From the NCBI GenBank assembly GCA_029862185.1, contig JAOTXX010000002.1, positions 1 through 64,000 of the forward strand: DNA of 64,000 nt, read 5' to 3'. The translations under genes and the position numbers were made by a program. The stretch is from Myxococcales bacterium. Its GTDB lineage: Bacteria > Myxococcota_A > Polyangia > Polyangiales > Houyiibacteriaceae. This document shows, one piece after another, positions 11,379 through 15,780 of this stretch (positions within the stretch are counted from its first letter, which is position 1; each line of letters begins with the position of its first letter). The notes under the pieces are model-generated. The model was given only the letters and a program-made list of their open reading frames with translations, was not told the DNA's origin and ran no database searches.

Positions 11379-12866
11379 TCACTTTTCTCCAGGAGGTTCG
11401 ATTCCAGTGAGGTGGGCGACGAGCTTCCGTATTGCGGCGGTGGCGGCGGCCTGTTCGCGGCCTGCGGCACTCTGCTCCATTTCCTGCTTCAGGGTTTCGA
11501 GCTGCGCCTCTTGCTGAGCGCGGAGTTCCTTTTCCAAGGTCGTGCGCGTGGTATTCACGTGCGGGTTATCGATGCCCGAGATTTCCCGGAGGGTGCGCCA
11601 AAGGTGGAGTCGCTCCGAGCATTGCAGGGTAAGCCTCGTGGAGATGACTTTACGCACGATGCCGCCATCGTTGTCGGCGAGCGAGATGAAAGGAAGCTTC
11701 CCGACGCGCTGTCGTCGCGTGAGCTCCAGGTAATCGGTCAACCCGACCAGATTGCCGTCGTTCGCGGGCGGGTCGCTGAGCTCTCCGACGAGATCCGATT
11801 CGGAGGCGGCGAAGTGGGCAAAGGTGTAGGGCTCTTCGACCTCAACGGCTTGCCCTTGCGAGTCACGAGTCAAGAGGGTGTCGGTGGTCAAAAGCGCATC
11901 GAGCGACGGATTTGAGGAGAGGTCAAAGCACAGGACGAATCGGCTGTCGCGATCCGGATCGTAAGTGCACATTGGAAACGCGCGGGCGTGGACGGCGCGT
12001 TCGGCGCGACTTTGAAACGCAGCCCGGTCCTCGTCTTCCCGCTCACAGAGGACCGAAATCACGGCAGGCCGTGGGGCGGTGAGCCCCTCGAACAGCTGCC
12101 TTTGAAAATCCGACGCGGCCTCGCAGGTTTGGACGAAGTAGACACCGCGCATTGCCAGCGGCAGCGTTTCGATGGTCATCGCGGACGCCACACCGGCGTC
12201 GACCGAAGTGGCGTGCACGTCGCGGAAGCTCGAGCGGAGAGCCGCGACCTTGATCGGCATTCCACTTTGGAGCAGAGACATCACCTTGCACAACCGCGCG
12301 CCACGGTCACCATCGAGACACGCCATCACGACAAAGGGAGGACACGCGCGGAGCTCCGCTGGGCCGAGCTGGCGCCAGGTGAAGTCCGCAAAGGCCGCGT
12401 CGTGGATTTCAGGGTCGTACTTGGCGCGGAGCTCGAGTTGAGCGATGCGCAGGGCTCGAAAAGCGCCGGCGATCCGATCAAAATGTTCCTCGGCGAGCTT
12501 CAGGATTTCGCGCTCCTCGTTCTCGATCTCCGTTGAGACCGAATCGAGCGGACGGGTCGACCAGGCCTCCTTCATCTCGTCGAGCCCAGCGATGAGCTCC
12601 TCGACGCGATGGAGCCGGGCCGGCGTCATCGCACGCGAGCGCGTGCTACCGCCGAGCAGGCGCGACAAGGAACCGATGTCCATGTTCGTCGCCGCAATGG
12701 GCCCCAACGCGCGCTCGAGCTGTTCGCGATCGTGCCCATGCCGATGGTACTCGTCGAGACGGACGAGCTCCGTCAGCTCACGGATGCTCTCTTCAAAAGC
12801 GTCCTCGAGGGCGACGCCATCGTGACGCCAAACATCTTCGACGGATTGCAGGACCTGCTTTTTCAT
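11379..12866 (-). CDS. Third protein of a 2-oxoacid:ferredoxin oxidoreductase operon; degenerate PFOR/NifJ-type TPP-domain-like protein
   Basis: 15-nt spacing to upstream beta subunit; PFVVMACLDGDRGARLCKVMSLLQSGMPIKVAALRSSFRDVHATSVDAG...RAVHARAFPMCTYDPDRDSRFVLCFDLSSNPS resembles C-terminal region of large PFORs. Confidence 0.6.
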   Translation of the reverse strand: MKKQVLQSVEDVWRHDGVALEDAFEESIRELTELVRLDEYHRHGHDREQLERALGPIAATNMDIGSLSRLLGGSTRSRAMTPARLHRVEELIAGLDEMKEAWSTRPLDSVSTEIENEEREILKLAEEHFDRIAGAFRALRIAQLELRAKYDPEIHDAAFADFTWRQLGPAELRACPPFVVMACLDGDRGARLCKVMSLLQSGMPIKVAALRSSFRDVHATSVDAGVASAMTIETLPLAMRGVYFVQTCEAASDFQRQLFEGLTAPRPAVISVLCEREDEDRAAFQSRAERAVHARAFPMCTYDPDRDSRFVLCFDLSSNPSLDALLTTDTLLTRDSQGQAVEVEEPYTFAHFAASESDLVGELSDPPANDGNLVGLTDYLELTRRQRVGKLPFISLADNDGGIVRKVISTRLTLQCSERLHLWRTLREISGIDNPHVNTTRTTLEKELRAQQEAQLETLKQEMEQSAAGREQAAATAAIRKLVAHLTGIEPPGEK

Positions 12867-12880
12867 GACGGGTACACGGA

Positions 12881-13837
12881 TTAGCCGGCGGCGTAACGGT
12901 CCATCACGGCGTCGAGACGCTGCAGGAAGGTCCGGTGATCGGGCCGCTCCTGGCGTTGCCATCGAATCTCCTCATAGGAAGGGACCTCGGGGTCTTGATA
13001 AACAAGGCCCATGGGGCAAGGGTCTACAGACACCGCGGCACGTTGAGCCTCGTTAATGTCGCGATGGTTGTGCGCCTGAACGGTGCCGCGTGCGAGGAGC
13101 GAAGGGTGAACCGGGATGCCGTCGTCGTGGTCGAGGAACACCAGCGGGAAGTGCACCCCGCCCTCGCCAAACGCTTTGGGCATGAACACCGGGCAACGCT
13201 GGAGGATTCGGACGAAGGAAAGACCATGATGCTCCCAAGCCTTTTCGATCGTCTCGTCGAGATGCGCGGGGAGCCAGGTCGCGGTTTGGGCGACGAAGGA
13301 AATATTGGTCATCCCCATCACAGTGCTCAGAGGGTTCATCGGCTTGAGGTAAGTGCCCCGCGGCGTGGTGTTGGTTTTCCATCCGTCGGGCGTCGTGGGT
13401 GAGACCTGCATCTTGGTGAGGGCATACACCTCGTTGTCGAGTACCAGCACGACCGCGTTGATGTTGTATCGGATCGCGTGCAGCCAATGGTTGCCGCCAA
13501 TACTGAAACAGTCCCCGTCCCCCATGATGACGATGACGGGAAGCTCGGGACGCGAGAGGCGCACGCCCGTCGCGATCGGCAATGCGCGCCCGTGGATGCC
13601 GTGAAAGCCGTAGGTCTTGAGATAGTGGGGGAGGCGGCTCGAACAGCCGATGCCGGAGACCGAGACGACGTTCTCCGGATCCAAATTGTTCTTGCGCAGC
13701 ACGCGCTGGAGCCCTGCGAGCACGCCATGGTCGCCGCATCCGCTGCACCAGCGGGGTCGCTCGGATTCATAGTCGTCGAGGGTGTGCGCTTCACTCGCAT
13801 GGCTCTCCATGAGGCACAAATCCGTAAGCGTAGACAT
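12881..13837 (-). CDS. korB: 2-oxoacid:ferredoxin oxidoreductase subunit beta
   Basis: PRWCSGCGDHGVLAGLQRVL, GIGCSSRLPHYLKTYGFHGIHGRALPIATGV, VIMGDGDCFSIGGNH, DNEVYALTKMQVSPTT. Confidence 0.93.
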   Translation of the reverse strand: MSTLTDLCLMESHASEAHTLDDYESERPRWCSGCGDHGVLAGLQRVLRKNNLDPENVVSVSGIGCSSRLPHYLKTYGFHGIHGRALPIATGVRLSRPELPVIVIMGDGDCFSIGGNHWLHAIRYNINAVVLVLDNEVYALTKMQVSPTTPDGWKTNTTPRGTYLKPMNPLSTVMGMTNISFVAQTATWLPAHLDETIEKAWEHHGLSFVRILQRCPVFMPKAFGEGGVHFPLVFLDHDDGIPVHPSLLARGTVQAHNHRDINEAQRAAVSVDPCPMGLVYQDPEVPSYEEIRWQRQERPDHRTFLQRLDAVMDRYAAG

Positions 13838-13839
13838 CG

Positions 13840-15780
13840 TCAGTGGACTCCTTTGCCTGCAGCGAGCGCCGGAGCCGAGCTCGCGACTCCCGGTCGGTCG
13901 GCGAGGATGCGTTTGACTTCCTCGAGGATCTCAACCGGCATGTAGGGGCGGCCCGGGACCCTTGCAATGCAGTCGATGTCCTGCAGGGTGGCGGCGCGCA
14001 GGATCCACGCCAACTGGCCATAGCGACGATTCTCATTGGTAATCAGCGGGTCATTCCAGTCGTCGCTGTAGTTGAGCTCCACCGTGATGATCTGGCGAAA
14101 GCGCGCGAAGATCTCAAGCAGGCCCGGGGGCAAGGGACTGAGGAACTGAATGTGCAACGAAGAAACCGAGAGGCCTTCGCTGCGCGCCACGTCGACGGCT
14201 TCCTCGATGGCGCCCCGCGTGCTGCCCCAACCCACGAGCAGCAGGTCGCCTTGGGGCGCTCCGTGCACGCTCGGTGGATTCAGGGTTTTCTGCAATGCGG
14301 CGAGCTTCCGGCTGCGCATCGCGTGGCCGCGCTGGTTGCTCTCGGCGTCGTAACGGGCCTTTCCATTGCGGTCGTGGTTGAGCGAGGTCGTCACGCCCAT
14401 GCCATCCGGCTGTCCGGGGAGTAGGCGCTGCGAAAGGCCCGTCGTCGGATCCCAATCATAGGGCAGGGCTCCGGGCGCCACTGGGCTGAGGTCGAGCGGA
14501 GGCCTCCGTGGCGTCTGGGAAACATCGGGGCGATTGAAGAGCTGCTGGCCGGTCGCCAGGTTGGCATCGGACAGAACGATGACGAGCATGCGAAATTCTT
14601 CGGCGATCTTTCGTGCGATCGACAGAATATAATAGCACTCTTCGATGGTGCTTGGTGCGATCACGACCTTGGGGGCGTCCCCGGGAGCGCCGTAAATCGC
14701 ATGAAGCAGATCCGACTGCTCGATCTTGGTCGGCAAGCCGGTGCTGGGTCCGCCGCGTTGAACATCCACGATGACGAGGGGTGTCTCGGTCATCACGGCC
14801 AAGCCCTGGAACTCGGTTTTCAAGGCCATGCCGGGTCCCGAGGTGATCGTCAGGGCGGTCTTTCCGGCGTACGAGGCCCCGAGCGCCACCCCGATGGCGG
14901 CGATCTCGTCTTCGGCCTGATGCACGAAGCCACCAAAATCTTCGAAGATTTCGGACAGGGCGTGCGAAGCGGAAGTCGCCGGTGTGATCGGGTACATCGA
15001 ACAGATTTCGAACCCCGCAGAGACAGCGCCAAGCGCGAGGGCGGTGTTACCGTTCATCGCCACTTTTGCCACGTCGCTTGGATGCGCTTCGATTTCGAAG
15101 CATCGATCGAAGTGCGTAACTCCATATTGATGACCCGCGGCTGCGAGTCTCACCGCCAGCTCGATCACCCTGCGGTCTTTGGCCTTGAAGATGTCACGAA
15201 TGACATCGTCGAGCAGGTCCAGGTCCTTGCTGTAGAGGGCGCACAAGATGCCGACCGCAAACATGTTCTTGCCCTGTTGCGCATCTTCGGCGTGACGGAG
15301 GGTTTCCTTTGCGAGCGGGACCTCGACGATCGTCGCGCCGCGTGAACGAAACTCGTCGAGCACCTCGCGGTAGGACAGGCGATACTTCTCGTCCTCGTGC
15401 GTTGCCCAATGATCGTCGATCAGCACGAGGACGTCGTCGGCGAGACTTCCTGCTTCGAGGCGGGAGAGCAGGGCCATTTCGTTGAAGGCCAGCACCACGT
15501 TTGCGCGGTTGCCCGCATTGGTGACCCGGGCGCGCTCGGCCAGGCGAATTCGGTTGCCGCTGGCGCTTCCAGTCGTGTGAGGCGGGGGCCGGATTTCGGA
15601 GGGTATGATCTCCACGGTCCAAAGGCCGTTGCCTGATTTCGCGCAGAGTTGGGCAAACGCAAGGGCTGCTTTTTGCGCACCTTCGCCTGCGTCGCTGACG
15701 ATTTCGACGATGTGCTCCGGGAGACGCAACGGACGGGGACCGCTCATGGGTTCTTCTTTTGAATCTTCGAGATCTATCAC
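13840..15780 (-). CDS. korA: 2-oxoacid:acceptor oxidoreductase subunit alpha (gamma-alpha fusion)
   Basis: AMNGNTALALGAVSAGFEICSMYPITPATSASHALSE, TSGPGMALKTEFQGLAVMTETPLVIVDVQRGGPSTGLPTK; GTG at 15780 overlaps previous stop, MSGPRP at 15747 is an alternative start. Confidence 0.93.
   Translation of the reverse strand: MIDLEDSKEEPMSGPRPLRLPEHIVEIVSDAGEGAQKAALAFAQLCAKSGNGLWTVEIIPSEIRPPPHTTGSASGNRIRLAERARVTNAGNRANVVLAFNEMALLSRLEAGSLADDVLVLIDDHWATHEDEKYRLSYREVLDEFRSRGATIVEVPLAKETLRHAEDAQQGKNMFAVGILCALYSKDLDLLDDVIRDIFKAKDRRVIELAVRLAAAGHQYGVTHFDRCFEIEAHPSDVAKVAMNGNTALALGAVSAGFEICSMYPITPATSASHALSEIFEDFGGFVHQAEDEIAAIGVALGASYAGKTALTITSGPGMALKTEFQGLAVMTETPLVIVDVQRGGPSTGLPTKIEQSDLLHAIYGAPGDAPKVVIAPSTIEECYYILSIARKIAEEFRMLVIVLSDANLATGQQLFNRPDVSQTPRRPPLDLSPVAPGALPYDWDPTTGLSQRLLPGQPDGMGVTTSLNHDRNGKARYDAESNQRGHAMRSRKLAALQKTLNPPSVHGAPQGDLLLVGWGSTRGAIEEAVDVARSEGLSVSSLHIQFLSPLPPGLLEIFARFRQIITVELNYSDDWNDPLITNENRRYGQLAWILRAATLQDIDCIARVPGRPYMPVEILEEVKRILADRPGVASSAPALAAGKGVH

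Follow-up and report, generated by a model that had tools for sequence, protein, structure and literature searches.

The protein encoded directly behind korB in the stretch of Myxococcales DNA analyzed here (64,000 nucleotides, the window) appears to be a TPP-dead offshoot of the OFOR family, and its standing as the dedicated partner of one clade of KorB proteins, and with it the tie to KorAB, is well supported. This protein, termed X in the following, is encoded next after korB in nearly all members of that clade, for which we propose the name KorABX clade, and it is predicted to bind KorAB physically.

The korA-korB-X Locus

The three genes lie on the minus strand in the order korA-korB-X. 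The first, korA (positions 13840..15780), encodes a fused gamma-alpha OFOR subunit that matches TIGR03710 above the cut-off, and korB (12881..13837) encodes the catalytic beta subunit, in which both the GDGD motif (VIMGDGDCFSIGG) and the CxxC...C Fe-S ligands are kept. The nearest solved relatives of KorA and KorB are 6n2n_A and 6n2n_B, the two chains of the 2-oxoglutarate:ferredoxin oxidoreductase from Magnetococcus marinus; the OFOR subfamily models matching the window KorAB are not substrate-specific, and 2-oxoglutarate would be a candidate substrate. X (11379..12866) is a 495-aa open reading frame with the N-terminus MKKQVLQS..., a start that is kept in all genus members. A first-pass annotation of the DNA had the size of this frame and its place downstream of korB right, and erred only in the spacing, which is 14 nt from the korB stop codon and not 15 nt.

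The korA-korB-X arrangement is intact in the same genus wherever the contig extends far enough, and the frame of X is open in nine genus members. Across these nine, pN/pS amounts to 0.41 for X versus 0.17 for korB at the same pS, placing X under purifying though relaxed selection. Consensus scans for promoters and terminators scored no better than shuffles. Upstream of korA, on the minus strand between positions 15780 and 18605, are encoded a protein of unknown family resembling a membrane protein and then a cytochrome c domain protein, both of which are also found upstream of korA at a second locus (L034); the same interval further codes for GTP cyclohydrolase I and a lipid desaturase of the Kua type.

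X Resembles a TPP Domain Stripped of Its Motifs

X has no sequence match to any Pfam, NCBIfam or PDB family. A profile built from 27 X sequences likewise found no match among the PDB sequences, and a single-protein scan of genome contigs returned nothing. With the PDB profile search null, the homology of X rests on a large OFOR of the same genome, on the alignment with it and on the predicted fold. The large-OFOR family is PFOR by sequence (6cin, 1kek) and has a ferredoxin-I-like tail, and its member in the window genome, on contig C15, retains GGDGAMYD and QVYSNTGGQ. Residues 123-447 of X align with the TPP domain and C-terminal extension of this protein at 32% identity (E 8e-35; tblastn/HMMER), which bears out the resemblance to the C-terminal TPP region of NifJ/PFOR that had been noticed from the letters alone.

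In this alignment FRDVHATSVDAG of X occupies the place of QVYSNTGGQACTSGF in the large OFOR. The segment DGDRG (X residues 185-189; 12300..12314, minus strand) stands opposite GGDGAMYD, at the site of the lost GGDGA Mg-TPP motif, and SSFRDVHATSVDAG (residues 212-225; 12192..12233, minus strand) marks the site of the lost NTGGQ motif and the loop that follows, confirming the earlier observation that an NTGGQ-type motif is replaced in X next to a KorB that keeps its GDGD. The CLGC/CAGC cysteine ligands of the proximal [4Fe-4S] cluster and the substrate loop NPYPFPWANHLFQDSP are missing from X. GDG and NTGG are missing in 28/28 aligned X domains, that of the window included, and the residues that replace GDG, NTGG, CLGC and the substrate loop differ from one X lineage to another. 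Judged by these motifs, every sampled X is TPP-dead. The window X also lacks the CxxCxxC [4Fe-4S] motif of the OFOR delta subunit and has no predicted cofactor site.

An AlphaFold2 model of the window X, built with 14 related X sequences, reached a pLDDT of 80.5 and a pTM of 0.73. In a Foldseek search with this model, suggested in the first-pass annotation, all of the best 24 PDB matches (24/24) were TPP-domain proteins of the PFOR/OFOR kind, namely PFOR, oxalate oxidoreductase and OFOR beta chains, with an E value of 1e-4 and a probability of 1.0 for the top match. The TM-scores to whole PFOR chains are low (about 0.24-0.28), marking a fragment-level match, because X covers only part of the long PFOR chains and has a helical N-terminus of its own. 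The fold of X is predicted to be PFOR-like, as a partial match.

Three regions can be delineated in the model. Residues 1-172 (12351..12866, minus strand) form a helical N-terminal region (AlphaFold helices 2-43, 47-72, 82-103 and 118-146) that would correspond to the helical insert of large-OFOR domain VI, without the substrate loop and CxGC ligands of the corresponding large-OFOR region. Residues 173-300 (11967..12350, minus strand) constitute a degenerate TPP-binding alpha/beta domain according to the alignment, AlphaFold and Foldseek. Residues 301-495 (11382..11966, minus strand), assigned by AlphaFold and by comparison with the large OFOR, comprise a C-terminal extension, which the large OFOR shares as far as residue 450 or so, together with a long helix at the end. 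The C-terminal ferredoxin domain that most other X proteins carry is absent from the window X.

X as the Partner of One KorB Clade

Our survey covered 379 Myxococcota genomes, 64 of which gave X-like or large-OFOR matches, and neighborhoods were read at 40 places; the pattern for scanning the named genomes was taken from a genus-only X alignment, as a broad X alignment yielded no usable pattern. The KorB scan of the 379 genomes was bimodal, with 45 matches at 445-561 bits and all others at ≤287 bits. Within the high-scoring clade, X is the next gene after korB in 36/36 informative linked cases (the window and 35 others); the remaining matches comprise three at contig ends and six in one family, f56 (36+3+6 of 45). 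In f56, six high-clade korAB pairs have no X behind them (one of these lies at a contig end, the other five are informative), and the genomes encode an X-like gene elsewhere, with an open frame of 1,306-1,437 aa. No X was seen at the three loci of the low-scoring KorB clade that were examined. As separate observations, the f56 homologue of X is unlinked from both korAB and rnf (L107, open frame 1382 aa; L191-L196), and two complete genomes of the window's genus (G016 and G018) have neither X nor a KorB of this clade, and lack RnfC and the large OFOR as well.

The arrangement korA-korB-X also occurs in Opitutales, Opitutaceae and Puniceicoccales (Verrucomicrobiota) and in Planctomycetes bacterium CA13. 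Compared with the Myxococcota reference, these loci are 76-79% identical in korA, 76-77% in korB and 44-47% in X, and no other flanking genes were seen in common between them and the Myxococcota korA-korB-X loci. These identities indicate that korA-korB-X was transferred as one block among Myxococcota, Verrucomicrobiota and Planctomycetota. In G601, a further relative of CA13, korA-korB-X is present and the ferredoxin tail of X is retained. Examination of the genome context, which the first-pass annotation had named as a check, places X behind korB throughout the informative linked members of a single KorB clade, and shows it accompanying korAB in three phyla. Both conditions under which that annotation would have dropped its idea, a lack of structural similarity to PFOR domains and homologues lying mostly away from korAB, were examined and neither applied. 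Its proposal of a non-catalytic paralogous subunit defining a variant KorABX enzyme has held up, X being locked to korAB and TPP competence lost in all sampled X.

Size, Ferredoxin Domain and Descent of X

X proteins vary widely in length: minimal forms have about 340 aa, others 490-850 aa and the largest about 1,300 aa, while the open frames, read without assigned start sites, reach 1,650 aa. The minimal forms match the X profile with a probability of 98.4 and consist of the helical and dead-TPP core only, while the longest X proteins also retain remnants of PFOR domain II. Most of the longer X proteins end in a single-cluster C-terminal ferredoxin domain (Pfam Fer4_13 in X_L072), which is missing from the X of the window lineage, CA13, Verrucomicrobiota and the minimal forms; the window-lineage X has apparently lost it. 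A maximum-likelihood tree resolved X as one clade (99/93), the TPP-dead large OFORs as one clade (100/100) and the catalytic large OFORs as one clade (100/99); the tree is unrooted, and the direction of descent is an inference. X can be regarded as a reduced relative of an OFOR of nearly full length, one which in most species has a ferredoxin domain of its own at the end. It would be descended from the C-terminal half of a large PFOR-type enzyme, with TPP domain VI and the extension, or have a common origin with that half.

A Large OFOR within the rnf Operon

In Myxococcota, Planctomycetota and Verrucomicrobiota the large OFOR is encoded within the rnf operon, in the order rnfB-OFOR-rnfC-D-G-E-A, and a ferredoxin-NADP reductase-like gene frequently comes next. 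A large PFOR-type OFOR was seen between rnfB and rnfC at L031, L032, L042, L096, L108-L125 and L153-L157. G001, G003 and many relatives have korA-korB-X and this operon in one run (korA-korB-X-rnfB-OFOR-rnfCDGEA). The window genome has korA-korB-X and rnf with the large OFOR on different contigs (rnf on C15), and in CA13 and Verrucomicrobiota X adjoins korAB, away from rnf. Many genomes carry the Rnf-OFOR operon without X, and in three others (G445, G586 and G583; completeness 97% for G445 and 93% for G586) KorABX is present, with an X that keeps its ferredoxin domain, and no RnfC or large OFOR was found. Rnf is not required for KorABX.

Where both sets of genes form one operon, the ferredoxin domain is located on X in 10 cases and on the large OFOR in 7, and on both or neither in 0/17 (Fisher p 5e-5, for related operons that fall into two clades); this complementarity may go back to no more than two or three events in their ancestry. 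In the 10 operons with the ferredoxin domain on X, the large OFOR is TPP-dead and keeps two 4Fe-4S motifs; in the 7 operons with the domain on the large OFOR, the latter is catalytic. In some genomes, such as G542, both proteins, encoded at separate loci, have the domain (X_L099 and B_L108 in G542), and those sampled X that are without it occur where the large OFOR has one. The TPP-dead OFOR between rnfB and rnfC (L039, L040, L072, L073, L089, L090, L094, L095, L097, L098, L101 and L125) keeps two CxxCxxCxxxC clusters in korA-korB-X-rnfB operons, which suggests a function as Fe-S wiring. A frame change within the helical insert, either real or an assembly error, breaks up the large OFOR of the window genome (L042:5917-5923, contig C15); close relatives encode it intact.

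Proposed Role of X and Alternative Explanations

In our judgment X is probably a third KorAB subunit, dedicated and without catalytic activity, that would serve in docking and in electron hand-off to a single-cluster ferredoxin domain. With its helical and dead-TPP core X would dock onto KorAB, placing a ferredoxin-I-like domain with a single cluster as the electron acceptor of the [4Fe-4S] cluster of KorB. In most species this domain would act in cis, as the C-terminus of X itself, and in the window lineage, CA13, Verrucomicrobiota and the minimal forms in trans, on the large OFOR of the Rnf operon. The window X has no predicted cofactor site, and its part in electron transfer would hence be indirect, that of a docking core letting KorAB pass electrons to the ferredoxin domain of the large OFOR and onward to RnfB and NAD+, or to a soluble ferredoxin. 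Weighing against the proposal are the small number of events that may underlie the ferredoxin complementarity, the genomes with the domain on both proteins, the five informative f56 genomes whose X is away from korAB, and the low TM-scores to whole PFOR chains.

The main rival, which we consider unlikely on balance though by no means negligible, assigns X to the assembly, stability or regulation of KorAB, as a subunit that takes no part in electron transfer; it might, for example, protect the Fe-S cluster or the active site against oxygen, or hold apo-KorB while cofactors are inserted. The absence of a cofactor motif from the window X and the retention of the helical and dead-TPP core alone in the minimal X of about 340 aa are consistent with such a role, as is the presence of OGDH E1 in the hosts, which therefore probably meet oxygen. 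However, most X proteins have a conserved C-terminal single-cluster ferredoxin domain (Fer4_13 in X_L072), and this domain is complementary to that on the Rnf-operon OFOR, both of which argue for a role in electron transfer. The single gene run korA-korB-X-rnfB-OFOR-rnfCDGEA of many species, together with the shared ancestry of X and the rnf-operon OFOR, could instead mean that X is primarily a subunit of an Rnf/large-OFOR complex and is only incidentally adjacent to korAB. We reject this as improbable because genomes with KorABX and no Rnf exist, G445 and G586 lacking both RnfC and the large OFOR; moreover, the Rnf-OFOR operon occurs without X in many genomes, and X lies beside korAB, away from rnf, in CA13 and Verrucomicrobiota.

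Very little speaks for X being still an active enzyme, with TPP or substrate motifs altered past recognition or with a different ligand in the former site: selection has kept the alpha/beta core, but GDG, NTGG, CLGC and the substrate loop are all missing, their replacements are not conserved between X lineages, and X is without the partner domain I that completes the TPP site. Equally hard to credit is a decaying duplicate carried along with korAB, since the frames are open in all sampled species of three phyla, pN/pS is well below 1, and X keeps its strict place after korB and was co-transferred with korAB, even though X evolves faster than korB (0.41 vs 0.17) and is shortened in some lineages. 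Replacement of 2-oxoglutarate dehydrogenase by KorABX was also considered and was rejected, as the host and most of the relatives tested have OGDH E1.

The proposed docking and hand-off by X admits of a more speculative extension, which we regard as doubtful, in which KorAB, X, the Rnf-embedded large OFOR and Rnf would form one membrane-attached 2-oxoacid:NAD+ oxidoreductase, with dead OFOR copies as Fe-S wiring and low-potential electrons passing from KorB to RnfB directly, without free ferredoxin, to drive ion pumping. In anaerobic energy conservation, where OFORs and Rnf both have a central place, the two are generally assumed to communicate by way of ferredoxin that diffuses between them. 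The presence across a phylum of an OFOR clade that has a TPP-dead subunit of OFOR origin, and that frequently shares an operon with Rnf and another OFOR, points to electron routing built into the system; KorABX also provides an example, open to direct testing, of how an enzyme can become a scaffold. Annotation would change as well: 'hypothetical' genes beside korAB would be parts of an enzyme, and some 'PFOR' genes of rnf operons would be catalytically dead.

Relation to Known Systems

Our search of the open-access literature found no earlier description of X, of a third KorAB subunit of this kind or of an OFOR inside an rnf operon. The closest solved enzymes to the window KorA and KorB are the two-subunit KorAB of Magnetococcus marinus (OGOR, 6n2n/6n2o) and Sulfolobus (StOFOR, 5b46), for neither of which, to our knowledge, is a third subunit known, whereas the window clade has X as the next gene in nearly all members. 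With domain VI of homodimeric PFOR (Moorella, 6cin; Desulfovibrio africanus, 1kek/7plm) X shares the predicted TPP-domain fold and the order of its elements, but it is a separate protein without the Mg-TPP motifs, Fe-S cysteines and substrate loop, and with an enlarged helical N-terminus and a C-terminal extension. The OFOR delta subunit, a 2[4Fe-4S] ferredoxin, is comparable in a possible hand-out of electrons from beta, given that most X end in a ferredoxin domain; the domain of the X family is, however, of the single-cluster ferredoxin-I type and is lost altogether from the window X. An extra subunit of unclear role is likewise found in the PFOR and OGOR of Aquificaceae, which consist of five subunits (alpha-beta-gamma-delta-epsilon) with a delta subunit resembling a CODH/ACS subunit and a two-cluster ferredoxin as epsilon (PMC10052474); X differs from these in its apparent derivation from an OFOR TPP domain.
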